From a virus: a DNA stretch of 50,545 bases. The position numbers and the translations under genes are program-made. How positions within the stretch are numbered: the first letter of the stretch is position 1; each line of letters opens with the position of its first letter. The stretch covers positions 1 to 50,545 of the IMG/VR virus record IMGVR_UViG_3300036770_005941; one strand, 5' to 3'. This document shows positions 2,571 through 50,103 of this stretch, piece after piece. A model generated the notes under the pieces. That model searched no databases and was not told the origin of the DNA. It saw nothing but the letters and a program-made list of their open reading frames with translations.

Positions 2571-4082
2571 TCAATTGCGTATCAAATAATCAAAAGCACC
2601 CAAAGCGGCAGTAGCACCCGATCCCATTGAAATGATGATCTGCTTGTAGGGCTCATTGGTGCAATCACCGGCTGCAAACACACCTGGCATGGTAGTGGCA
2701 CCGTGACCATCCGTGATGATCTCACCGTATCTGGTACGATCCACAGCACCTTCCAACCAGTCAGTGTTGGGTACTAAACCAATCTGGATGAACACGCCTT
2801 CCAGGGCTAGATGTTGCTCTACTTCAGTGTCGCGCTCCACATACTGGATTCCAGATACTTTTTCGCTGCCTGTGATCTCTCGGACCTGCACGTTGGTGTG
2901 GACAGTAACATTGGACAGGCTCTTGAGTCGGTTCTGTAGCACTTGATCGGCCTTGAGCTTGGGCATGAACTCGAACACAGTAACATGTCCCACGATACCA
3001 GCGAGGTCAATGGCTGCTTCCACACCTGAGTTGCCACCACCTATCACAGCCACGTGTTTTCCTTTGAACAACGGTCCATCACAGTGTGGGCAGTAGGCTA
3101 CACCACGATTCTTGAACTCCGCTTCGCCGGGAACACCCAGATTACGCCAGCGAGCACCTGTGGCGATGATCACTGTCTTTGACTTGAGAGTGGCACCTGA
3201 TTCCAGTTCTACCTTGATCTGACCGTTCTTCTCGATACGCTTTGCTCGCTGTAGGTTGAACACATCCACGTCGTACTCTTTGACATGTTCTTCCAACTGT
3301 GCCACTAACCGGGGACCTTCTGTGTATCGGGTGCCGATGAGATTCTCGATGCCCATAGTGTCCATGACCTGGCCGCCAAAACGTTCAGCCACGATGGCAG
3401 TGCGGATGCCTTTGCGGGCAGCGTACACAGCCGCACTGGCACCAGCAGGGCCACCACCTACTACGAGCACATCATACTCGCGTCCATCGATGTCTGAAAC
3501 ATCTGCAGCCGATCCTAACTTGGCCAGGATCTCTTCGATGGTCATGCGTCCTGATCCAAACGATTTACCGTTGAGCCATACACTGGGCACAGCCATGATG
3601 TTGCGATTGGTGGCTTCTTCTTGGAAAGCCGCACCGTCGATCATCACATGCGAGATGCCAGGATTCAGCACAGCCATGGTGTTGAGTGCCTGTACTACGT
3701 CAGGGCAGTTGTGGCAAGTGAGACTGATGTAAGTCTCGAAACGATACTCACCACGCATGGCCTTGATCTGCTCGATCACTTTGTCGTCGATTTTAGGCTT
3801 ACGACCGCTGGCCTGCAGGAGTGCCAAGATCAGGCTGGTGAACTCATGCCCAGTGGGCACACCTGCGAACGTGATGCGGTCGCCCACACGGAAACTGGGA
3901 CTACGGGGCAGTTGTCCAGGCTCAATGGTGATCAGGTCAGTCATGCCTGCGATCTCGTGCAAGAGATCTAGCATGGCTTGGCTGGTCTCGTCTACACCGG
4001 CACGCACTGTGATGGCAACAGGACCCTCGAGCAGTTTGAGATACTGCTCGAGTTGGCTACGGATAGCGGAGTCCAAAGGCAT
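2571..4082 (-). CDS. ahpF: Alkyl hydroperoxide reductase subunit F (AhpF)
   Basis: Flavoprotein disulfide reductase that uses NAD(P)H to reduce the peroxiredoxin AhpC. At 503 residues it is close to full length (about 520 in enterobacteria). Residues 1 to about 195 are the double thioredoxin-fold domain with redox centre CHNC (123-126). Then come an FAD-binding GGGPAG motif near 209, the thioredoxin-reductase-type active site CPHC (331-334), and a second dinucleotide motif VIGGGNSG. All four redox cysteines are present, so it should be active. It starts 2 bases after ahpC stops, forming the classical ahpCF operon. Such a pair is unusual in a phage. Confidence 0.95.
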
Positions 4083-4084
4083 CG

Positions 4085-4648
4085 TTAGATCTTACCTACG
4101 AGGTCCAGGCTGGGGGTCAGGGTAGCGGCACCTTCTTTCCACTTGGCAGGGCAGACCTGACCGGGGTTGGCGGCTGTGTACTGAGCGGCCTGCAGTTTAC
4201 GCAAGGTTTCTGTGATGTCGCGAGCGATCTCGTTAGAATGTACTTCAGCAGTCTTGACGATGCCTTCAGGATTGATCACGAATGTGCCACGCAGGGCGAG
4301 TCCTTCTGAATCAATGTGTACACCAAAGCCACGGGTCATTGTGTGGGTAGGGTCGCCTACGAGAGGGAACTTGGCTTTGCCAACAGCAGGCGAAGTCTCA
4401 TGCCAGACTTTGTGGCTGAAGTGTGTGTCAGTGGTGACGATGTAGACTTCTGCGCCCATCTTTTGGAACTGGGCGTAGTTGTCGGCAGCGTCTTCGATCT
4501 CCGTGGGGCAGTTGAAAGTGAAGGCCGCGGGCATGAAAATGAACACGTTCCACTTGCCTAGGATGCTTTCGTTAGAAACTTCTACGAATTTACCGTTATG
4601 GTAAGCCTGAGTACGGAATTCAGGCACAGATGTATTGATGATGCTCAT
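4085..4648 (-). CDS. ahpC: Alkyl hydroperoxide reductase subunit C (peroxiredoxin AhpC)
   Basis: Typical 2-Cys peroxiredoxin of 187 residues, exactly the usual AhpC length. The peroxidatic cysteine is C47 in FTFNCPTE and the resolving cysteine C166 in [11 protein letters not shown]; the C-terminus SLDLVGKI matches bacterial AhpC. It reduces hydrogen peroxide and organic peroxides in the cytoplasm and is recycled by AhpF, encoded just downstream. An AAAGGA ribosome site precedes the ATG. A promoter with a hairpin in the leader and an upstream palindrome lie at 4682-4795. Confidence 0.96.
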
Positions 4649-25939: not shown

Positions 25940-26328
25940 GGTTGCCGATAGCCTTCTTTGCGATAGTTGGCTTGTCCTGGAATCACACCTCTTACTCCTC
26001 CAACTGGATCTTCGACATCACCTTTGCGTCTGGGGATAAGATGAACATGTGGATACATTATGGTCTGTCCTGCGGCTTCACCCATGTTCATGCCAATGTT
26101 GAAGGCATCGCAATCTCCTCGATCGACCATGGTCTGTCCTTCTGACCACGCTTCATACAAAGTACTCATCATGGAAACCGGATCGATGTTTTTGGGGATA
26201 AACAATAGATGTCCCTGGGTCACAGGATAACGATCTCGGAATACGATATAAGTCATTCCTTCGCGCACCCACTCATCCCATGGTGCTCGACCCTGACTTT
26301 TGGCAACATAATAATTGTCAAAAAACAT
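25936..26328 (-). CDS. HIT-family nucleotide hydrolase/transferase
   Basis: Protein of 130 residues. The histidine-triad region reads QTIMYPHVHLIPRRKGD; the central catalytic His is kept but the first His of HxHxH is Tyr. The rest (GDVEDPVGGVRGVIP) matches bacterial HIT proteins. HIT enzymes cleave nucleoside phosphoramidates or dinucleoside polyphosphates. It lies between two exported peptidases without having a signal peptide itself; TAATG overlap with the subtilase stop. Confidence 0.88.
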   Translation of the reverse strand: MFFDNYYVAKSQGRAPWDEWVREGMTYIVFRDRYPVTQGHLLFIPKNIDPVSMMSTLYEAWSEGQTMVDRGDCDAFNIGMNMGEAAGQTIMYPHVHLIPRRKGDVEDPVGGVRGVIPGQANYRKEGYRQP

Positions 26329-28733
26329 TAGAAGCTCCTTGAATATTGCACACCAGTCTGATACACACCGGCCTGATCGACCACGGCTCGCATGCTCAGT
26401 CGATTGTTGCCTTTGTGATCAACGATCTGATATCCTGTGCCAACATAGGCCACTGGTTGGTTCTGGCTGAGATCAGCTCGAACGTTGGAATAACGCATCA
26501 CACCATCAGCATCTACTGAAGTAGGAACAGTGATATCCAAATGTCCGGCGACCACGTAAGGCTTCACTCCGCCATACAGGCTAAACCCATCCTGTGTGTA
26601 TCCAGCCACGGCATGCACAGCATAGATCGGTGCCACACGGTTGACCATGCCCGGAGAGAATTGCGTAGTGGTCTGCATCACGCCGCCCTGCGCCCACCAG
26701 GATTGATCACTGCGATAAGTGGTGTTGTATTCCATGGTAGTGGAACCACTCACCGAACCCCACGAACCTGAAAACTGTACATATGGATTCACTTCGGTTT
26801 GTGTCATAGTTATCTGATGTGTCCATGGACTCTGCAAGCCAAACGCACGGCTATCCAGGCTCACAGAAGTGTTGCGATTGACCTGGCCTACAGCAAATCC
26901 CTGGAAGTGTGTGGTGGCCACTCCGGCATATTTGGCCGACCAAGACTGCCCCGGTGCATGATCCAGCACAGCGGGATTTGATATCAAGGTATTTTTAGTG
27001 ACCAGACTGCTCATGTCCACGGTGAAGTCTCTCTGGAATTCATCCACTGCTGAGACTGAACTCAATGCACCCTTTACAGCCGAGTCCACTCCGGGCAGAC
27101 TGATTGATCCAGAGATGGGTTGTGCTGTTCCGGTACGTCCGGTGAGCGAGATGCCTAAGTTTCCTACAGGGCGTGTGGCACGATCTAGATCCAGCATACC
27201 GGCACCCATGGTCTCTGCTGAGTACCCTGGTAGGTTCTTGTTGGCTGTTTTTAGTAGCAGTTGCACAGTCTGGTCGCCCTTCATATAGGGCCACATCTGG
27301 TGTACGATAGCCACGGCCCCGGCCACCACAGGAGCGGCCTGGCTGGTTCCTGACATCACTTTGGTTCCGTCATCGATGGAGTTGGAAGTGATCCTTGTAC
27401 CTGGTGCCAAGATGTAGAAGTCCTTGGTCTGATAGCGATCATTACAAGTATTATTGGTGTAGTCTTTGCACACATGCCCAGCGGCTGCACCTTCCACTTG
27501 GTTCAAGGTAGCATTCCAATTGCCTACTACCAGCATACGTCCGCCTAGCAATAGATTGCCATTGTCATCTGTAGCAGTGGCGAATGTAGCCGGATTTTGG
27601 ACATATCCATCTTTGCTATTACCAGCACTCACTGTGAGTACCAATTCCTTTGGCAACACAGCGGCCCATTGTTCAGGCCTCTCCATGTTGTAATAGTTGG
27701 CACCACCGTAGTTCTTGTGAGTGTTGACATACACACCATTGCCTTTGTAAGTCATGGCTGATTTGTAGTCGGCGCTGTAGTTCACGTTGGCGCTGAGGCT
27801 GGCCACTACGATGTCGTTGTACTGTCCGGCCCAGGCCAGGGCCTTTTGGGCAGTGGTCATGCCCACGGTACCGTTGTCGGTGATCTTAGCGATGGCCAAG
27901 TTTGCATCAAAAGCCACACCGTGAGTGGCCACTCCGTTGCGGGCGCCAGCCGCGATACCGGCCACATGGGTACCGTGTCCATTGGTGTCTTGAAGACCTT
28001 TGCCAGTGTAATCGATTGAGTATTTGATCTTGCCTGCGAAGTCGGGATTGTTGACGTCGATACCCGAGTCCATGATCATGATCGTGGAGCCTTTACCGGT
28101 CCATCCACGTGCATAAGCATAGTTGGCATTGACACCAGCGATCACACCGTTGTTGGCTTCGGGCGTCAAGTAGAACGTGGGATCATGGCTGGGTACCGCA
28201 GTGGGTGTTCCCAAGGCTGGATTATTGCCATAATACGTCCGAGCAGAATAAGTCTTGGGATCAAAGTCTAGCGTGGGCTGACTGACCACAGGTGAGGCTA
28301 CTGGAGCAGTCTTAGCCGCTACCAGCACTTCAGTCGATGTAAGAATGCGTTCAGTACGTTGTTTGCGATCTGTGGCATTTACAGTAGCCACTGCCTGTAC
28401 AGTACGGACAACTTGTGTGCGACCATTGCTGAGTCGTTCGGTGGCCACGCGATACGTGGTCACTTGTTTTTGTACTGGAGTATCGGTGATGGTATAGATC
28501 ACACGATAGCGTTCACGGATCTGGCTACCGTCTTTGTTTTTGACGATTCGGCTGTCGGTAGTTTCTCGAATTGTTACTTTCGGTGTGCCCGAACTCAAGA
28601 TAGTTTCGGATTTTTGAGTGCTGTATCGTACAGACACTACCGTGGGTGCTGATGCCGAAAAGGCCGGGGTAACATACACACCCGAAACTGCCATGGCCAC
28701 AGCCGCGGCCACTAGATTTTGTCGGAACTGCAT
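26328..28733 (-). CDS. Exported subtilisin-like serine protease (S8)
   Basis: Protein of 801 residues. Residues 1-27 are a signal peptide ending in PAFSA. About 28-200 form a propeptide-like region rich in Thr and Val. The catalytic domain has D222 (MIMDSGID), H253 (NGHGTHVAG), N372 (SAGNS) and S464 (SGTSQAAP). Residues from about 510 are strand-rich with alternating polar and aromatic residues and end in ...YSRSF, the terminal Phe expected of outer-membrane beta barrels, so it may be an autotransporter-like protease. It has its own promoter and a GGGAGG ribosome site. Confidence 0.93.
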   Translation of the reverse strand: MQFRQNLVAAAVAMAVSGVYVTPAFSASAPTVVSVRYSTQKSETILSSGTPKVTIRETTDSRIVKNKDGSQIRERYRVIYTITDTPVQKQVTTYRVATERLSNGRTQVVRTVQAVATVNATDRKQRTERILTSTEVLVAAKTAPVASPVVSQPTLDFDPKTYSARTYYGNNPALGTPTAVPSHDPTFYLTPEANNGVIAGVNANYAYARGWTGKGSTIMIMDSGIDVNNPDFAGKIKYSIDYTGKGLQDTNGHGTHVAGIAAGARNGVATHGVAFDANLAIAKITDNGTVGMTTAQKALAWAGQYNDIVVASLSANVNYSADYKSAMTYKGNGVYVNTHKNYGGANYYNMERPEQWAAVLPKELVLTVSAGNSKDGYVQNPATFATATDDNGNLLLGGRMLVVGNWNATLNQVEGAAAGHVCKDYTNNTCNDRYQTKDFYILAPGTRITSNSIDDGTKVMSGTSQAAPVVAGAVAIVHQMWPYMKGDQTVQLLLKTANKNLPGYSAETMGAGMLDLDRATRPVGNLGISLTGRTGTAQPISGSISLPGVDSAVKGALSSVSAVDEFQRDFTVDMSSLVTKNTLISNPAVLDHAPGQSWSAKYAGVATTHFQGFAVGQVNRNTSVSLDSRAFGLQSPWTHQITMTQTEVNPYVQFSGSWGSVSGSTTMEYNTTYRSDQSWWAQGGVMQTTTQFSPGMVNRVAPIYAVHAVAGYTQDGFSLYGGVKPYVVAGHLDITVPTSVDADGVMRYSNVRADLSQNQPVAYVGTGYQIVDHKGNNRLSMRAVVDQAGVYQTGVQYSRSF

Positions 28734-42534: not shown

Positions 42535-43614
42535 CTAAGGTGTGTTGGGTTTGATGCCTATCACCATAAATCTTTTGTATTTGGTTTCCGGATCTTCGAG
42601 ATCTAATTCGCCTTGGTATAAAACATCAAGAGGAAACTTCTTGAGGATGTCATCTGTGCTGTGGAACTGGTGCCCAGGGTCGTGATCACGAGCTTGTAGT
42701 GCCACCAATGTGCCCGGCGGAATGTTATCATACCATTCACGTCCATCCATGTCAGTGAGACTGGTATTGATTACTACTCCATCTTTGTCGAGTCGTCTGT
42801 AGTCAATGTCGTTAGCGTCTGCTCGCATATGATCCACGCAGGCAGCACCGATGTGATCCAACATCCTTTTACTCTGTTTGAGAAATTCAGGATCAGTTTC
42901 TACGTTGATGATACGTTCGGTTTTCACAGCAGGATGCAGTTTCATGTACAAGCTGAGATTGCCAAACCATGCACCCAAGATATACACAGTGCTCACACGA
43001 TCTCGGATCTTAGAAAGTTCTTGTATCAACCATAGTTTGCTCTTGGTCAGATCCGGAGTGAAACTGCCTTGTAGGCTGTAGCCACTGCTTTCTTTCAATG
43101 GTTTCTGCGTAGGGAATCTCGTAGCTGAGCGTCGTGCAGGATCGTATTCTCTGTTGCAGGCTGGATTGATCAGACTGACTATGCGTGTCTCTAGAGCCTT
43201 GAGCTCTGTCTTGAGCTGTTCTTTGTCGCCGCCAAAGTCTGCCACAGTGGTGATAGGAAAGAATCGCAAAGTGATATCTCGGAGATCATCTATGCCATAA
43301 CCAGCGGTGCGGAACTTGGTAGCGAACTCACGCCAGTTATGCATCTGCTTGGCTGACGTGCATTGATCCAGGAGTTTTTGTATGTGTTTATTCCAGCGCT
43401 CAGTGAAGTTGTCGGCGGCTGCGATACCCACGTAGAAGTAGCCCCAATCAGGATGGTGCCACACATAGATACCTGACTTGCGTGTTTCGGCTGGACGGTC
43501 TCTGCGTAGTTTGATAGTCAAGCCAGGTTGATTGGGTCGTTGTTGTACCAGAGAAAAGATATCGTAGAATGGATATCTAACACTGCGACCTAGTTGCACT
43601 TCTGATATCTTCAT
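42535..43614 (-). CDS. GIY-YIG nuclease fused to methyltransferase-like domain
   Basis: Protein of 359 residues. N-terminal domain: GIYVW (48-52), YFYVGIAA (59-66), R73 in ERWNKH and E142 in ALETRIVSLINP are the full GIY-YIG catalytic set. C-terminal domain (about 195-359): VYILGAWFGNLSLYM in place of motif I, ETDPEFLKQSK, and INTSLTDMDGREWYDNIPPG, a phage methyltransferase-like pattern. A nuclease joined to a modification-type domain suggests restriction-like or homing activity. The start MKISEV loosely resembles the N-terminal tags of downstream genes. Confidence 0.82.
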   Translation of the reverse strand: MKISEVQLGRSVRYPFYDIFSLVQQRPNQPGLTIKLRRDRPAETRKSGIYVWHHPDWGYFYVGIAAADNFTERWNKHIQKLLDQCTSAKQMHNWREFATKFRTAGYGIDDLRDITLRFFPITTVADFGGDKEQLKTELKALETRIVSLINPACNREYDPARRSATRFPTQKPLKESSGYSLQGSFTPDLTKSKLWLIQELSKIRDRVSTVYILGAWFGNLSLYMKLHPAVKTERIINVETDPEFLKQSKRMLDHIGAACVDHMRADANDIDYRRLDKDGVVINTSLTDMDGREWYDNIPPGTLVALQARDHDPGHQFHSTDDILKKFPLDVLYQGELDLEDPETKYKRFMVIGIKPNTP

Positions 43615-43679
43615 ACCGGGCTATAGGGATTCTTAGGACGGTCGGTGCCGTCATCTTGGGGCCACACAGGATAGTCCAT
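43611..43679 (-). CDS. 22-residue micro-gene
   Basis: ATG at 43679 to TGA at 43611, product MDYPVWPQDDGTDRPKN plus five more residues. It fits exactly between two genes: its ATG shares a base with the upstream stop (TGATG) and its stop overlaps the next ATG (ATGA). Such packing argues that it is translated, if only as a coupling link. Confidence 0.5.
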   Translation of the reverse strand: MDYPVWPQDDGTDRPKNPYSPV

Positions 43680-43966
43680 CACTTACCTGCCGCTGCCAAG
43701 GCAGCACCGTTGTTGAAACTCTGGCTCCAGGAATTAGGAGTGCGTCCTTTGCGGAACCACCATTCATAACCAGCTCGGTGCCCTGAACAGTCTTTGGTGC
43801 ACGGACTGCCCTTGAACGTGAGTTCGTCGATCTGTTCGTCTTCATTGGCTTTCTTTTTGCGGCCAGCACAATGCGCCCGCTGACTAAATCCCTTGGGGTG
43901 AGCACAATTGATAGAGCGTTTGTACTTCTCGCTCCACTTTTCAGAAACGAACTCGCTGGCTCTCAT
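43679..43966 (-). CDS. Tagged basic Cys-rich phage protein
   Basis: Protein of 95 residues from the ATG at 43966 (ATGA overlap). It begins MRASEFVSE, a capsid-targeting-like tag. Two cysteine modules follow: NCAHPKGFSQRAHCAGRKKK and SPCTKDCSGHRAGYEWWF, both of which I recall from other T4-like phages. Probably DNA- or capsid-associated. Confidence 0.75.
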   Translation of the reverse strand: MRASEFVSEKWSEKYKRSINCAHPKGFSQRAHCAGRKKKANEDEQIDELTFKGSPCTKDCSGHRAGYEWWFRKGRTPNSWSQSFNNGAALAAAGK

Positions 43967-44370
43967 TTTGTTATTGGCCCACCTTCTACCCAGGCACTGC
44001 AAGTACGCTTGGCAGCGCACTTAAATTTCAAGAATTTGCAGTATCCTAGTGTGCCGGCATCTATGGTGTCCATGGGGTCTGACCCAGGTTCTGCGCCAAT
44101 GCCTTTGGCTATGCAATCCAGCATGTCATCGGATATGTCAAAGGCCGCGCAGTTGCCACAGCGTGCTGATTTGGCCTGCTCGATATCATCCATGTTCCAC
44201 TCTGCGGCGATCTTGGACCAGTATTCTTCGTTGGGCTCGTTGGGATCCATGGGACCATACATGTATTCATCTATGGCTTTCTTGCGATTGCGGAGATTGA
44301 GATCGATGCTCTGTGTGGCCGGAGGGCAACCTCGTTCTATGGCTTCCCATAGATTGATTAGGTCTCTCAT
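43963..44370 (-). CDS. Cys-rich hypothetical phage protein with tag
   Basis: Protein of 135 residues starting MRDLINLWE, compatible with the tag consensus. The C-terminal half has RCGNCAAFD, a single C, LGYCKFLKFKC and RTCSAW, six or seven cysteines probably binding zinc or an Fe-S cluster. Function unknown. Confidence 0.75.
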   Translation of the reverse strand: MRDLINLWEAIERGCPPATQSIDLNLRNRKKAIDEYMYGPMDPNEPNEEYWSKIAAEWNMDDIEQAKSARCGNCAAFDISDDMLDCIAKGIGAEPGSDPMDTIDAGTLGYCKFLKFKCAAKRTCSAWVEGGPITK

Positions 44371-44471
44371 GCCAATCCTAGTCTTCTCTTGAGTTCGTTG
44401 CGTGCGGCACTGAAACTTTCCGCTACGATATTGTGGACCGTTTCACCAATCCTAAACATGTATGTTTTCAT
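44367..44471 (-). CDS. 34-residue small protein
   Basis: ATG at 44471 to TGA at 44367, beginning MKTYMFRIGETVHNIVAESF and ending in a basic helix. ATGA overlaps with both neighbours support its being a real gene. Confidence 0.6.
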   Translation of the reverse strand: MKTYMFRIGETVHNIVAESFSAARNELKRRLGLA

Positions 44472-44821
44472 TTCTTTTTGGTGGCCACGTTCTTAGCGGG
44501 ACCTTTCCTTTCTGGGTTGGGATCTTCTCTACGCTTCCTTGCTGCCGCGGAAGCACGTCCTTTTTTGCCAAGTGCATGTGCCTTGGACTGTGGCAAGCAT
44601 TTGGGCTTGCCTTCCTTGCTGGAACCCCTAGCACATGGTCCCATGATCTTGCCTTGTGGATTGAATCTCACCCACTTTTCTTTGAACCACTTGCGGAGAT
44701 CTTCTTCCATCTGCTGTTCGCTCACGGGCACGCAGTTGGGCACCTGGCGGTCGCCCTTTTTCTTCATGCCCTGTTGACGATATCCTTTCCAGCAGGATTC
44801 TAAGATCTCACGATATCTCAT
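44468..44821 (-). CDS. Tagged basic phage protein
   Basis: Protein of 117 residues from the ATG at 44821 (ATGA overlap). It starts MRYREILES, fitting the tag. The C-terminal half (WVRFNPQGKIMGPCARG, KPKCLPQSKAHALGKKG) is very basic with paired cysteines, of a type seen in many T4-like phages and suited to binding DNA. Confidence 0.78.
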   Translation of the reverse strand: MRYREILESCWKGYRQQGMKKKGDRQVPNCVPVSEQQMEEDLRKWFKEKWVRFNPQGKIMGPCARGSSKEGKPKCLPQSKAHALGKKGRASAAARKRREDPNPERKGPAKNVATKKK

Positions 44822-46710
44822 TTTTTCTTCTTGCCGCCTTCGCCCCAGTTGGCAGCACCTTTCTTGCGGCATTGTACCAAGGCACCCGATGCATAGGCAG
44901 ATGGCCATACTTTATAACGGCTTTTGACTTTGTTATAGCAGGCATCTTTCTTTTCACCAAGATCACTTCGCACACTCCAGTCAACATCTATGTCTGTGAC
45001 TTTCTTACCTTTGCGCTCGAAATGCCGGGTGATCATTTCGCGGAAGCCTTCGTCGAATGGTATCTTGACTTGGTGTTTGCTACCATCATCCAGCGTGACT
45101 GTGGCCACATGATATTCTCCAGGACGCAGGCTTTCGATCAGCCCTTGTTTCTTTGCCGCGAAATCTAGATCTAGCAATCGCTGTTTGATGATTTCTTTAT
45201 CACCAGATGTCATCATTGGTTGGCTCAGCAATTTATACAGATATTCGCGTTTGTCAAGATAGTCACGTTTGTCGATCAAAGGATTGTTTCCACCTCGATT
45301 GATGTTGAAACGATTGATATCTACTTGTGTTTCCGATACACGGCTTTCGTGTAATACATGTTGACCAAACCCTTCGATGTCTACAGTGACAAAGTTGCGT
45401 CGGCTTTCGATTATGGTAGCATGACGACCTTTGAATTCACCTGCAGTGATCTCTACAGATTCAGCTGCTTTGCGACGTCGACGTTTTTCAATTTGATTGA
45501 TATCAGTACCTGGTAGTTCTAGACTGGGGAATGGTATAATATCTGCACCTTTGGGTTGAGCTTTGGGCGCAGGACCTTGTACTTTCGTGTCAGGCTCAGC
45601 CTGTGGTGCAGGCACAGGTTCTGCTGTCTGCCTGGGCTGTCGTTGCGGCACGGGCTGTGGCACAGGTTCGGGTTTGACTTCTGGCTCGGCGGGTGCTTGC
45701 TTGGGCTCTGCTGCCACAGGTTCTGCGGGAGTTGGTGTAGCGGCAGGTGCTGGCGGTGCGATCTTAGGCGCCACGGCTACGGGTTCGGCTTTGGCTGCTT
45801 TGGCCACTGCCGCAGACAGTTTGTTTATCTGTTGTGCTTGTTCTTGATTGTCTGCTTTGACCTGCTGGAGTTCTTGCTCTATCTCTGCTGATCGTTGTAT
45901 TTCGTCCTTGACAAACGCTTCGAAATCGCTACCGGCTGCTGCCTGTCGGCCACGTGCCAGTTGGAAGGCACGCTGTACCTTGGGATCGATCGCCGTGGTG
46001 CGATCTAGCTCGTCAGACTCTTTTTTTTTAGCTTCGAACGGCAGATCCATCTGACTGGGGTCAGTCTCGGGCTTGTTGTAAGCTGGCTTGCTGGGGATCA
46101 TGCCTTTACGACGCAGTTGATCTATATACTCGATAGTTTCGACTCGATCTGCTAGTTTTTGTATGAGATCTCGTTGTTGCTGGCTGGTCATTTTCTTGGC
46201 CCGGAGAAACAAGGCCTGCATCTGAGGACGGTACAATGTGAGAGGTTGACCTTGACCGTCGAACTCTAGATCCACAGTGGGACGATTGTCATCGAACGCC
46301 CGAAGCATGCGTGTCCAGTTCAACATGCCGATGTTGATAGGGTCTCGTTTAGAGGAGGTTGGTTGCGTGATTTCTTCTAGCTGTCCTGGAAAAGTATCTC
46401 CTGAGACACCACGTTTGCCAGGAACGGAACCACGGAATTGTTTTTGTTTCTGGATGAGATCTCTCAGTTGTTTCATGTGTAGATCAAACTGCACCGGATC
46501 TCCAAGATCACGCAGGAACTCTTCCTGGCGTCCCACTTTGTTGTAGGCTTTGTACTTGCCCATCATGAAACGTGCTTCGGGATACTCCAATGTCACTGTT
46601 TCTCCGCCGAGGTTTAGCACGGCCTTGGAACTGGTATCCACGGCCCGCATCAAGGCACGCAAGTTGTCGTAGCCCGTGGTCTGATCTTCGATGAGGTTCA
46701 GTAGGTTCAT
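44818..46710 (-). CDS. Large modular phage protein with Pro/Ala linker
   Basis: Protein of 630 residues starting MNLLNLIEDQ, tag-like. Residues about 1-270 are charged and helical; about 290-385 are a Pro/Ala/Glu-rich flexible linker; residues 420-600 are mixed alpha/beta. It ends with a basic Cys module (ACYNKVKSRYKVWPSAYAS, then CRKKGAANWG) found in many T4-like phage proteins. Virion or core location is inferred from the tag and neighbours. Confidence 0.75.
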   Translation of the reverse strand: MNLLNLIEDQTTGYDNLRALMRAVDTSSKAVLNLGGETVTLEYPEARFMMGKYKAYNKVGRQEEFLRDLGDPVQFDLHMKQLRDLIQKQKQFRGSVPGKRGVSGDTFPGQLEEITQPTSSKRDPINIGMLNWTRMLRAFDDNRPTVDLEFDGQGQPLTLYRPQMQALFLRAKKMTSQQQRDLIQKLADRVETIEYIDQLRRKGMIPSKPAYNKPETDPSQMDLPFEAKKKESDELDRTTAIDPKVQRAFQLARGRQAAAGSDFEAFVKDEIQRSAEIEQELQQVKADNQEQAQQINKLSAAVAKAAKAEPVAVAPKIAPPAPAATPTPAEPVAAEPKQAPAEPEVKPEPVPQPVPQRQPRQTAEPVPAPQAEPDTKVQGPAPKAQPKGADIIPFPSLELPGTDINQIEKRRRRKAAESVEITAGEFKGRHATIIESRRNFVTVDIEGFGQHVLHESRVSETQVDINRFNINRGGNNPLIDKRDYLDKREYLYKLLSQPMMTSGDKEIIKQRLLDLDFAAKKQGLIESLRPGEYHVATVTLDDGSKHQVKIPFDEGFREMITRHFERKGKKVTDIDVDWSVRSDLGEKKDACYNKVKSRYKVWPSAYASGALVQCRKKGAANWGEGGKKKK

Positions 46711-47756
46711 TATCTTTCTTCCAGGTAATCTTTTTTCATATCGGCACCACGACGACGTGAGCAGTACATCTCACAGGCCATCACAGCTTCGTCAAGGTCG
46801 CTGAATCTTGTTTTAGCTTCTCGGTTCTTGATAGTGATACGGAAGCCATCGTCTTCGTTGCCGTGGATCTTGATCTCGTGTCCGTCATCGGTCTTGATAG
46901 TTTTCACAGCAGGACCGATCTGATCGATGTCTTTTTCTAGCTTGTCTTTGAGATCGGGATCTTTCTTGATCTCTTTGGTGAGATCTGAAAGATAATCGCC
47001 TAGCTTTTTCTTTACTGTAGATATCACATCTTCTGTAGTAGCGGATTCTGTGATTGGCCCACGCAAGGTATCTATGAGTTCGCCTGCGAAGTCGGGGTCT
47101 CTCATGATGGAACGCACCCGGATGTCACTCATGCCCATGCGACTCAATTCCCGAGCAGCATCACGCAGGATGTCATCTTCTGAAGCCTTCAAATAACTTT
47201 TACCGGGATTGTTGTCCAGCATGGCACGGCTCACCTGATATATGGTGTTGTCTTGACCTTCGGCAAATGGCTTCCTATCATCCATCTCTTCTCTGCTACC
47301 CATGCGGTCATCTAGATAATCTTTCACACGATGTACATAAGCTGATACATCACTTGACCCAATCTCTTCCCAATCATCTTCACCTTCAGTGACATCATCG
47401 ATGGCCTGCATCAGGGCTTCTACGCCGTAACGGGTGATCCATTCTGGATGCTGATTCACGATACGACGGGTGACAGCTTGTGCCATGGGGTTAGATTCTT
47501 GTTCTTCGTCTAGGAAGCTCTGTGTGTCAGGACTCACACCATCGGGTGTTTCGTCTGCACCGGAATCTCCAGTTTCGCTGCCCCAACCTTGTTCGTCTCC
47601 CTCGCCCACTAGATAACCCAGTGTGGCATTTTTGCCAGGATAGGCGCCAGCGATCTGTGGGCTTGTATCTTTGGGCTTGAACAGAGCAGGAAGTTGCTTG
47701 ACACTTTTCTGTGCGGCATCAAGACTTTCTAGGATCTGATAGATGTCCTTGCTCAT
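46710..47756 (-). CDS. Hypothetical acidic protein, tag-like start
   Basis: Protein of 348 residues, strongly acidic (many Asp and Glu at 50-170), helical, starting MSKDIYQILES, compatible with the tag. The C-terminus RFSDLDEAVMACEMYCSRR resembles a small alpha/beta module. It shares one base with the next gene. Confidence 0.72.
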   Translation of the reverse strand: MSKDIYQILESLDAAQKSVKQLPALFKPKDTSPQIAGAYPGKNATLGYLVGEGDEQGWGSETGDSGADETPDGVSPDTQSFLDEEQESNPMAQAVTRRIVNQHPEWITRYGVEALMQAIDDVTEGEDDWEEIGSSDVSAYVHRVKDYLDDRMGSREEMDDRKPFAEGQDNTIYQVSRAMLDNNPGKSYLKASEDDILRDAARELSRMGMSDIRVRSIMRDPDFAGELIDTLRGPITESATTEDVISTVKKKLGDYLSDLTKEIKKDPDLKDKLEKDIDQIGPAVKTIKTDDGHEIKIHGNEDDGFRITIKNREAKTRFSDLDEAVMACEMYCSRRRGADMKKDYLEER

Positions 47757-48196
47757 GCTCGATCTTCTTTCAGGAACGATTTCAGCATCCAGCCGTGTTT
47801 GCCGTGTGCGTCGATGCGCCCAGCTATAAAGTCGGCGATGCCTTGTTGATCTTCTGCCTCTGCTGAGTCAAAGCATTGATTCAGCAGATCGATCATGGTC
47901 TGATTATCCGCTAGGAGTTCTGTGATCATCAACCGAGCACGAGGAATCTTGGTCTGCCCTTGTATCAGGCTCATTTCCGAGAAACGTTCAAAACTACCAG
48001 GTGCGTACTCTTCTAGCACACGTAGATATTCGGCGGTTTGATCGATGGTGTTTTCGTAGACTTCTTCGTAGATCTTGCCAAAGAATTTATGATATTGGCC
48101 GAAATCTGGGCCTTCAACATTCCAGTGGAAGAACTGGGCCTTGATCACGAAGGCGTAAGCGGTGGCTAGCAGTGTTTTTAGATCTTCTCTTAGCAT
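47753..48196 (-). CDS. dps: Dps-family ferritin-like protein
   Basis: Protein of 147 residues, single four-helix domain. KAQFFHWNVEGPDFGQYHKF holds H24 and H36, and IDQTAEYLR holds D52 and E56, matching the inter-subunit ferroxidase ligands of Dps; the extra Asp of E. coli Dps (D67) is Gly here. Dps oxidises iron with peroxide and shields DNA. It lacks the Lys-rich N-terminal tail used for DNA binding. Its first 83 bases overlap the upstream small gene. Confidence 0.9.
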   Translation of the reverse strand: MLREDLKTLLATAYAFVIKAQFFHWNVEGPDFGQYHKFFGKIYEEVYENTIDQTAEYLRVLEEYAPGSFERFSEMSLIQGQTKIPRARLMITELLADNQTMIDLLNQCFDSAEAEDQQGIADFIAGRIDAHGKHGWMLKSFLKEDRA

Positions 48197-48341
48197 CTGG
48201 GTTTCTCTTTGTAAAATCTATGTCGTATTTAGCCGCTGTTGCACTCTCACCGGCTCTTGTGATCATGCCGCCCATGGGCATGGCCACAGTGGCTATGGCA
48301 CCGCTTGACGTGGTTTCCATGACGAATTCATGCGCTCTCAT
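48114..48341 (-). CDS. Small tagged phage protein overlapping dps
   Basis: Protein of 75 residues from the ATG at 48341. MRAHEFVMETTSSGAIATVA and MPMGGMITRAG form a short conserved pattern I recall from related phages, usually ended soon after by a stop. Here the frame runs on as a basic tail that overlaps dps by 83 bases, so a lost stop is possible. Confidence 0.6.
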   Translation of the reverse strand: MRAHEFVMETTSSGAIATVAMPMGGMITRAGESATAAKYDIDFTKRNPDAKRRSKNTASHRLRLRDQGPVLPLEC

Positions 48342-48627
48342 CAGTGATCTCAAAGGTTTTTGAATCTATCACACGCACTGGACCAGTTTCCGCTTTGAGT
48401 CCACGCATCTTGAACACACACGCTGGATCACCAAGGTTGTCTACTCTGATAGTATATCGTCCAGGTGGTGCTGAAAGTTGCAGGATCTCCTGCAGATACT
48501 GTGTGCCACCCCAGATGTAAGTGCGTTCCGTGAACATCTCGTGATTTACATAGAGCCTATAGGTAGGAGGAGTCTTTTTCCAATCGCAGTGCAGGTCTAG
48601 GTTGAGTTTGACGAATCTATTGCGCAT
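48328..48627 (-). CDS. Hypothetical phage protein
   Basis: Protein of 99 residues, beta-rich: FVKLNLDLHCDWKK, TYRLYVNHEMFTER and GRYTIRVDNLGDPA suggest a small jelly-roll or Ig-like sheet. First gene after a late-type promoter box. Function unknown. Confidence 0.78.
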   Translation of the reverse strand: MRNRFVKLNLDLHCDWKKTPPTYRLYVNHEMFTERTYIWGGTQYLQEILQLSAPPGRYTIRVDNLGDPACVFKMRGLKAETGPVRVIDSKTFEITDESA

Positions 48628-48631
48628 GAGA

Positions 48632-48639
48632 TATTTATA
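48632..48639 (-). promoter_or_regulatory. T4-type late promoter box TATAAATA
   Basis: Exact TATAAATA on the minus strand four bases before the ATG at 48627, in the only gap of the cluster (48628-48654). It would start transcription at or beside that ATG and so drive the small protein, Dps and the tagged genes. Confidence 0.6.
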
Positions 48640-48654
48640 GCAGTAGATTATGGC

Positions 48655-48837
48655 CTAGCGAGAACGCCGGATGCTACCTATGTGATGATGCTCTACTCCA
48701 TACTGGGCTTTTATCAGCTGGCGTGCTTCAGCCTGGTTGTGCGCATAAACACTCACATCGATCCTGCCCGTGTAGTTGGGATTCTGTATGGTGACTGCGG
48801 CTGTCCATTTGTGTCCTGTGACGTCTTTGACTTTCAT
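48655..48837 (-). CDS. Small hypothetical protein
   Basis: Protein of 60 residues with a strand (WTAAVTIQNPNYTGRIDVSV) followed by a helix (NQAEARQLIKAQY), like a small alpha/beta domain. ATG at 48837, four bases after the upstream stop. Function unknown. Confidence 0.7.
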   Translation of the reverse strand: MKVKDVTGHKWTAAVTIQNPNYTGRIDVSVYAHNQAEARQLIKAQYGVEHHHIGSIRRSR

Positions 48838-48841
48838 ACTA

Positions 48842-49621
48842 TTACTTATTCTTCCGTCCCGACTTCATGTTGGCACACCAGTGGTACATCTTGCCACGCT
48901 CACCACCGTATTTCTTAGCACGGGCTCGTAGATCTGTGACACTGCCTTTGCAACTGGCACCACTGCGTTTCACACGTCCAGGCCTGCTTTTGCCTTTGAC
49001 CTTGCCATCCGCGAAGTTTTCTTTTACACTGGCACCCGATCTATGATATTCTGTAGCACCACCCGCCCTATCCACATGCCAAGCGTAGAACCGTGACCAA
49101 GGGTAGTCTTGTGCTAAACTCAAGAAAGCGTCGAGGTTGGGCACAGCATCATCATACATGATGACTTTGTCGTAGTGCTTTTGACCCAGCAAGTGCTTGA
49201 GTATGATCTTTTTCTTCTCTTCAGTGGCCACTTTCATCTGTATGTTGCCGGCACGATACACATGTACTTTGCTCATGTCTATGTCCCACTTGCGGAAAGT
49301 GTCCAAGAACAATTCTCTATCGTTGAAGTCGGCCCTGGCAGTGACCATTATCACCCGATTACCCGTGGCGATGTCGTTTTTCAGTTGCTGGATCATGGGT
49401 GCTATGGGACGGGCATTGGCGAAGAACTCTCGGGCATCACGGAAAGCACCAAAGTCAAACTCTTCACCGGGCTGTAGTTTATAATGGGTGAAATCGTGGC
49501 TGTCTAACCGCTTGATGGTTTTGCCATCTTTCACGACTCCGACCTTAGTGTCGGTGTTGACTAGGGTGTCGTCGATATCGAAGATCACCAGTTTTGAGTT
49601 GGTAAATTCGCTGGCTCTCAT
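48842..49621 (-). CDS. HAD-family phosphatase with basic Cys tail and N-terminal tag
   Basis: Protein of 259 residues. It starts MRASEF. VIFDIDDTLVNTD carries the HAD nucleophile D15 and D17, VIMVTARAD is motif II, and IMYDDAVPN motif IV. This resembles phosphatase domains of polynucleotide-kinase type. Residues from about 205 on are basic (GRVKRSGASCKGSVTDLRAR, then YHWCANMKSGRK), like the tails of neighbouring proteins. 3'-end phosphate removal on DNA or RNA is plausible. Confidence 0.82.
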   Translation of the reverse strand: MRASEFTNSKLVIFDIDDTLVNTDTKVGVVKDGKTIKRLDSHDFTHYKLQPGEEFDFGAFRDAREFFANARPIAPMIQQLKNDIATGNRVIMVTARADFNDRELFLDTFRKWDIDMSKVHVYRAGNIQMKVATEEKKKIILKHLLGQKHYDKVIMYDDAVPNLDAFLSLAQDYPWSRFYAWHVDRAGGATEYHRSGASVKENFADGKVKGKSRPGRVKRSGASCKGSVTDLRARAKKYGGERGKMYHWCANMKSGRKNK

Positions 49622-50103
49622 TCTGTATATCCTATCCAGGCACGGCCACGATAGCCATTGGGAAATGCTTTGATGTTCTGAATGGTGCGGTGCCAGCCCT
49701 CCACTAACTCAAGACCCCGGACTCCGGGTCGTTGCACTACTATGATGGGCTCTTGGCTGGGGGCACCGGTCTGTTGTATCTGTTGTGCTTGTGTGGCGTG
49801 ACGCTCGGCGTCTCTGCGCACGTTCATGGGATTGCTGCTGCCACCTTGGCGTTCCAGGATCTTGGCCTGTGTGTTCTCATCAAAGGAATCCAATCGGAGA
49901 TTGAGAGTCTGGAGTTCCCAACGATACACAGGATACTCGTCGGCGATGTCAAGGAAATAGGCTTCCATCTCGCTGGGCTCCAGTCCCTTGGCACCGGAAT
50001 ACAACCAGTCGCGTATCACATAGTCGGGCCAGTCAGGGAACCAGCTCTGTATATATTTCAAGTAGCCTTGGCGTGTTTCTGTGATTATATCCTGAACTCG
50101 CAT
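49618..50103 (-). CDS. Tagged hypothetical phage protein
   Basis: Protein of 161 residues. MRVQDIITE is an exact fit to the tag with a T4-type (I-x-E) cleavage site. A helical middle follows, then GLELVEGWHRTIQNIKAFPN and RAWIGY at the end, a module I recall from other T4-like phages. Function unknown. Confidence 0.76.
   Translation of the reverse strand: MRVQDIITETRQGYLKYIQSWFPDWPDYVIRDWLYSGAKGLEPSEMEAYFLDIADEYPVYRWELQTLNLRLDSFDENTQAKILERQGGSSNPMNVRRDAERHATQAQQIQQTGAPSQEPIIVVQRPGVRGLELVEGWHRTIQNIKAFPNGYRGRAWIGYTE

Follow-up and report, generated by a model that had tools for sequence, protein, structure and literature searches.

The locus described here raises the question of why neighboring phage genes that encode unrelated proteins should begin with nearly the same short peptide, and whether this peptide directs the proteins into the phage head. 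The window (the whole stretch of DNA analyzed, 50,545 bases) is a complete IMG/VR record that covers a fragment of a larger virus, an uncultured, huge, T4-related phage. Based on the family-B DNA polymerase of the window, the closest isolates are Sinorhizobium phage Phosso (50%) and Agrobacterium phage Atu_ph07 (46%), followed by the Rak2-like jumbo phages, and many IMG/VR relatives share 81-90% polymerase identity. A scan of the whole genome for the shared N-terminus had been proposed in a first-pass annotation; as the window is a 50.5-kb fragment, the scan was run instead on four large relatives (G001, 342 kb; G002, 344 kb; G003, 316 kb; and G005, 209 kb). A nucleotide search of half of the window against the phage collection gave no match. 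Synteny was of no help either, as the genes upstream of polB in Phosso and Atu_ph07 are untagged and look like those for fiber proteins. Elsewhere in the window, and by eye only, neighboring genes at 2571-4648 resemble those for an AhpF-type reductase and a peroxiredoxin, and an 801-aa protein (26328-28733) looks like a protease of the subtilisin type whose end is autotransporter-like.

A shared N-terminus in a cluster of minus-strand genes

The first-pass annotation claimed that many products encoded between 43679 and 50103 start alike and listed seven N-termini. This was confirmed, with evidence stronger than had been claimed, and all seven are real open reading frame starts on the minus strand. 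They are of unequal quality, however: MSKDIYQILE, MNLLNLIE, and MRDLINLWE are weak when judged on the tag alone. One tag-bearing start was overlooked (MRASEFTNS at 48842, a tag without the Glu), and the span needs to be extended to 42535 to include a further member of the cluster (42535-43614, starting MKISEVQLG).

All cluster genes named below lie on the minus strand. The gene at 49618-50103 encodes an acidic protein (161 aa, pI 5.5) with the tag MRVQDIITE (matrix score, 9.1; see below) and a predicted mature start at T10; its orthologs carry MRSKEFITE (L267), MRAREFLTE (L004), and MRAQEFITE (L251). The next gene (48842-49621) encodes a 259-aa protein assigned to the HAD superfamily by HAD-like matches, in which the tag prefix MRASEF is not followed by a Glu site; orthologs retain MRASEF, MRAQEF, or MKAREF. 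A small basic protein of 60 aa (48655-48837) starts with MKVKDVTG, which is a weak tag in the window (p 0.03), and its orthologs start with MRAQELTG, MRSKEFITE, or MRLREFVTE. In the 75-aa protein at 48114-48341, the tag MRAHEFVME, supported by the matrix, is followed by a mimic of the capsid protein N-arm (TTSSGAIATVAMPMGG). An acidic 348-aa protein (46710-47756) has the weak tag MSKDIYQILE and an internal junction at 47258, FAE followed by GQDNTIYQ. Several of its orthologs keep ILE, and in L251 its domain sits behind MRINEILVE...VAE. The 630-aa protein at 44818-46710 (PHROG 727, 4.8e-20) consists of MNLLNLIE, a Pro/Ala-rich middle, and a C-terminal two-Cys module, and MNLLNLIE or MNLFNLIE is retained in its orthologs. 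The protein at 44468-44821 (117 aa, pI 10.4) bears the tag MRYREILE, and that at 43679-43966 (95 aa) bears MRASEFVSE, the top-scoring tag of the window. Between these two, at 43963-44370, lies the gene for a 135-aa Cys-rich protein, MRDLINLWE, resembling high-potential iron-sulfur proteins, as its relatives are annotated. Although its tag is weak on its own, E9 is invariant in 27 sequences of the family. A profile search with this protein found no PDB relative, and its predicted structure was unusable (pLDDT 46). Inside the cluster, a ferritin/Dps-like gene (47753-48196; Pfam, 3e-19) carries no tag in the window, nor do those of its orthologs whose starts were inspected.

For a quantitative measure, a position matrix for starts was built from 130 tags of relatives, with the window excluded, and compared with a null of 6698 internal Met windows. 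The starts at 43679, 48114, 49618, and 48842 score above every null window, followed by 44468 (p=0.002), 44818 (p=0.06), and 43963 (p=0.10), and 46710 falls outside the top 20. The 99% null level is passed by 6/12 cluster genes versus 0/63 genes elsewhere in the window. One of the six, 48328 (MRNRFVKLN), has orthologs without a tag and was treated as a chance match.

In the relatives, the tag consensus is MRAxEF[IV]xE. Across all loci, 271 distinct proteins match the tag pattern, and after removal of their first 11 residues they fall into 37 BLAST-unrelated cargo groups, so the claim that unrelated cargo stands behind one tag held. Upstream open frames are short in 83% of the 271; pattern matches in L207, L247, L255, and L266, which have long open frames upstream, are probably due to chance. 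At loci not picked by a Glu-containing pattern, the residue at position 9 after MRAxEF[ILVM]x is Glu in 59/65 cases, and the following (P1') residue is unconstrained. The synonymous codons of the tag are free to vary, and the upstream 20 nt carry no more than 0.27 bit per position, indicating that selection acts on the tag peptide. The tag, its conservation at the amino acid level, and the diversity of the cargo are thus direct results. A near-constant Glu ahead of a free residue is what a cut site in front of varied cargo would be expected to look like, an inference from sequence alone. The P3 residue of the tags is I, V, L, or M, with V going beyond the published L/I rule, and the predicted propeptides of the window proteins are 8-10 residues long; peptides such as MRASEFVSEKWSEK and EQIDELTFKG span predicted cut sites in tags or junctions.

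Shared modules and the junctions between them

The cluster proteins share with those of the relatives a set of modules whose order differs. We counted seven, A to F and the methyltransferase-like J. Modules A to F comprise 25-77 residues, have pI values of 9.9-10.9, and contain two Cys each. The 95-aa protein at 43679-43966 combines module A (KWSEKYKRSINC...) with module F (LTFKGSPCTKDC..., from 43822), which is preceded by IDE. The cyanophage gene that carries module A has terminase, tail, and head genes as neighbors. The protein at 44468-44821 consists of its tag, module B (SCWKGYRQQGMKKKG), and module C (DLRKWFKEKW, from 44701), which is preceded by MEE and is found behind tags in L022, L052, and L073. 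Module D (KKDACYNKVKSRYKVWPSAY..., 44818-44952) follows LGE at the C terminus of the 630-aa protein, and the basic two-Cys module E (NFADGKVKGKSRPGR..., 48842-49018) follows SVKE at the C terminus of the HAD protein; module E stands alone behind tags in L028, L041, and L202. In the protein at 42535-43614, a GIY-YIG domain (Pfam, 4.8e-5), LKE, and a domain with a SAM-methyltransferase fold (SSGYSL..., from 43089) follow one another. The latter domain was modeled mostly at pLDDT 80-95 and matches methyltransferases (Foldseek, 3e-8). In many relatives it is a separate tagged gene, with MKIRDLTE, MNIRDLAE, MRIQDLINE, or MRARELVKE preceding SSGYSL, SSGSTL, or SSGYTL.

Stand-alone modules follow tags directly, and fused copies follow QLDE, QIDE, VKE, LKE, LAE, and similar sequences. 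A hydrophobic-x-Glu junction is present in 48/67 independent fused upstream contexts versus a background of 2.1%, and these independent junctions are mostly L/I/V/M-x-E. Some modules have an almost invariant Glu in front of them (module E, 13/13; module A, 5/5). Because the boundaries of modules D and F were set at the Glu, their choice is partly circular, but conservation across contexts is not. While the junction motif itself is a direct result, its meaning is inferred only from sequence: it suggests that the modular cargo are polyproteins punctuated by protease sites.

Head machinery of the relatives and cyanophage virions

The first-pass annotation called for the prohead protease to be identified. 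A protease of the T4 gp21 family (Peptidase_S77, 6e-25 to 5e-28) is present in all four large relatives, together with an orthologous gp22-like scaffold and capsid protein; the protease, core, and capsid genes are absent from the 50-kb window fragment. In G002, the gene order (portal-like, two small core-like genes, protease, scaffold-like, capsid) matches T4 20-67-68-21-22-23. Here the head maturation protease and the major head protein were identified by PHROG, and the portal, core, and scaffold genes were named by position and look. The T4-like head machinery of the relatives is thus directly observed.

All four relatives have ...KYLKE-NASAGSTVSGNIATLNRV in their capsid proteins. Members of the 48114 family read MRAQEFIKE-NASVGSTSSGSVATVAMP and MRANEFIRE-DSGSTVSGNVATVAQP, with the Glu in or beside the register of the capsid KYLKE, and the likeness of the arms reaches a best score of 51, versus a maximum of 40 among 200 shuffled arms. 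The MRAHEFVME family thus mimics the capsid N-arm, with the tag Glu aligned to a capsid cut site that is predicted by analogy with T4. Likewise, S-SM2 gp108 copies its own gp23 (MKTLKQFLKE-TPTNSVGNGGYTSAGGQTVAGYD versus MIAE-QPTNAVGNGGYTSSGGQTVAGFD), and similar arms exist on S-CREM2 gp160 (Table 3 of PMC10665884) and S-SCSM1 gp97 (an annotated virion protein). It is likely, by inference that includes the cutting itself, that this subset, with its arm mimic exposed after the cut, would line the inner shell.

Independent evidence comes from cyanophage particles. The published virion list of S-CREM2 (Table 3 of PMC10665884) was compared with the 219 annotated proteins of this phage. All T4-like-tagged proteins are on the list (5/5; Fisher p 0.0006 versus all proteins): gp6 (SAM hydrolase), gp13, gp14 (kinase), gp136, and gp154 (cytidylyltransferase). 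With only K or R allowed at position 2, the count is 4/4 (p 0.003). The pattern was settled after S-CREM2 had been viewed and is partly post hoc; it is stricter than the first, loose pattern, which gave a Fisher p of 0.02 with three non-virion matches; furthermore, the S-CREM2 authors acknowledge possible copurification. In S-SCSM1, 1/2 tagged proteins is marked as virion (p 0.31, not significant): the virion NMNAT starts with MKSFLQFLKE, and gp30 (MKTFKQFMSE) has no virion annotation. S-SCSM1 gp29 is annotated as a virion protein and has modules B, C, and D but no N-terminal tag, showing that the tag is not the sole route into the head. A PHROG family annotated as virion structural protein (14802) aligns from residue 1, tag included, with Atu_ph07 and G002 proteins starting MKTLQDYLTE and MKTFAEYLTE, respectively. 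The presence of tag-bearing proteins in cyanophage virions thus rests on published mass spectrometry, without an N-terminome.

Interpretation and comparison with known systems

The shared N-terminus is likely a T4-type capsid-targeting sequence that is later cut off. This claim of the first-pass annotation is supported by several independent tests, because (i) the tag is conserved with a Glu at the predicted cut position, (ii) relatives have a gp21-type protease and T4-like head genes, (iii) the tag Glu lines up with the site at which the capsid protein itself is predicted to be matured, and (iv) all five T4-like-tagged proteins of S-CREM2 were detected in the particle. In the proposed mechanism, the tag would dock unrelated proteins onto the prohead's gp22 scaffold core, a prohead protease of the gp21 type would cleave after the Glu of [ILVM]-x-E, and the mature protein would stay inside the head with the DNA until delivery at infection. 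With cut sites between modules, several of the long cargo would probably be polyproteins from which enzymes (GIY-YIG, methyltransferase, HAD) and small basic modules with two Cys are released. For this phage, docking, packing into the head, maturation by the protease, and injection remain inferred, and the further claim that the proteins are effectors was not established; that role is likewise an inference.

An alternative for several of the tagged proteins is that they are internal proteins that condense the DNA or line the capsid. If this held generally, the tags would mark core- or scaffold-associated proteins for head assembly or DNA condensation, which are cut and stay with the DNA and do not act on the host. 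In its favor, modules A to F resemble DNA-binding internal proteins in their small size and basic character (pI 9.9-10.9), a lining role is suggested by the mimicry of the capsid arm, and homologs exist among cyanophage head genes. However, enzyme-like cargo (GIY-YIG plus methyltransferase fold, HAD) and the SAM hydrolase, kinase, and cytidylyltransferase among the tagged S-CREM2 virion proteins speak against it, and we are inclined, if not by a wide margin, to doubt this explanation.

It is also conceivable that hydrophobic-x-Glu belongs to the module fold or to an inherited linker and is no protease site. The near-constant Glu before modules E and A and the drawing of the D and F boundaries at the Glu would be compatible with this. 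We consider it unlikely, since the motif is common to seven modules without evident similarity, both fused and stand-alone and behind unrelated upstream sequence, and fits the published gp21 rule L/I-x-E. Least plausible of all is that the shared starts reflect a signal for translation initiation or another signal in the nucleotides, or that the genes descend from a common ancestor: the tagged genes are clustered, often overlap head to tail, and have similar starts, but the free synonymous positions and weakly conserved upstream DNA argue against a nucleotide signal, and the 37 unrelated cargo groups argue against common descent.

The capsid-targeting reading places these proteins beside T4 IPI, IPII, IPIII, and Alt, which likewise have unrelated cargo behind one N-terminal tag of about 10 residues with a hydrophobic-x-Glu end; a gp21-type protease and a T4-like prohead core are also common to T4 and the relatives. 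In T4, the capsid-targeting sequence comprises IPIII residues 1-10, gp21 cleaves after L/I-x-E, and Asp at position 10 abolishes cutting but not targeting (PMC9026906). In our control, T4 ipII and ipIII carry MKTYQEFIAE and match the pattern, whereas ipI has MKTFKEF and a later site, a delay that parallels the MRASEF without Glu at 48842. The clade differs from T4 in its tag (MRAxEF[IV]xE versus MKTYQEFIAE), in its dozens of cargo families, in the repetition of the cut-site motif between modules, and in the capsid-arm mimic.

Homologous modules A to D, with the same junction motif where checked, exist in the Kyanoviridae T4-GC119 protein (encoded between gp16 and gp17) and in S-SCSM1 gp29 (PHROG 727 and 3477), which are annotated as hypothetical or only as virion protein; no targeting or cleavage role is assigned to them in the literature sections examined. 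Among the proteins that mass spectrometry detected in S-CREM2 virions, the SAM hydrolase starts with the T4-like tag MKDFDSFLEE, the APH/ChoK-like kinase with MKRFDAFLTE, and the cytidylyltransferase with MKNFSSFLTE. The terms "N-terminal," "targeting," "internal protein," and "cleav" are absent from that report (PMC10665884), and the open-access literature searched yielded no mention of cyanophage virion cargo bearing a targeting tag. Polyvalent proteins (PMC5512222) of phages likewise have several domains, and their packaging and processing for delivery have been proposed. They are freed by embedded peptidase domains, however, and neither a tag nor gp21-type punctuation is described in the relevant sections; Pfam scans of our cluster proteins listed no confident peptidase domain, which is not proof of absence. 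The ejection proteins of phiKZ and SPN3US are internal head proteins as well, and a prohead protease cleaves them on the C-terminal side of a Glu, but their propeptides often exceed 100 residues and the motif is S/A-x-E (PMC5694885, PMC9026906). Propeptides of such length are not predicted in the window, where the P3 residue of the tags is V, I, or L; the pattern used on the relatives itself demands I, L, V, or M, so S/A was not independently sought.

Proteins carried in the head and delivered at infection are usually identified only through virion mass spectrometry. A sequence rule for head cargo, already consistent with the published cyanophage virion data, would provide candidate first-strike proteins of uncultured phages, which could include anti-restriction and host takeover factors like T4 IPI and IPIII. 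A bolder reading, for and against which we see comparable grounds, is that capsid-cargo polyproteins, in which gp21-type sites lie between interchangeable two-Cys basic modules and enzymes, are encoded by T4-superfamily phages, the uncultured huge phages and the marine cyanophages among them. A single prohead protease would then let a few genes yield many head-resident, delivered proteins, some of which would show a capsid N-arm mimic after the cut. If true, the polyprotein reading implies a new use for prohead proteases.

Further tagged proteins were observed at other loci. Two tagged singletons (L183:2376-3161 and L248:1217-1648) look like ADP-ribosyltransferases by eye (YLYHG, RVYHVT), with no Pfam or PHROG match. 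In G003 (L150:2570-2968), a Tat signal (Pfam TAT_signal, 1.1e-6) comes immediately after the tag MRAQELLVE and would be exposed by the cut. S-CREM2 gp12 (L301:7704-10313), a Cas9-like virion protein, has the tag-like sequence RFASFMAE about 18-25 residues into its N-terminus. A second tagged cluster (MKTFAEYLTE, MKTLREYITE, MRAREFVTE, and MRAREFITE) exists in G001, G002, G003, and G005; in G002 (L140:444-4464) it adjoins tail sheath- and tube-like genes.
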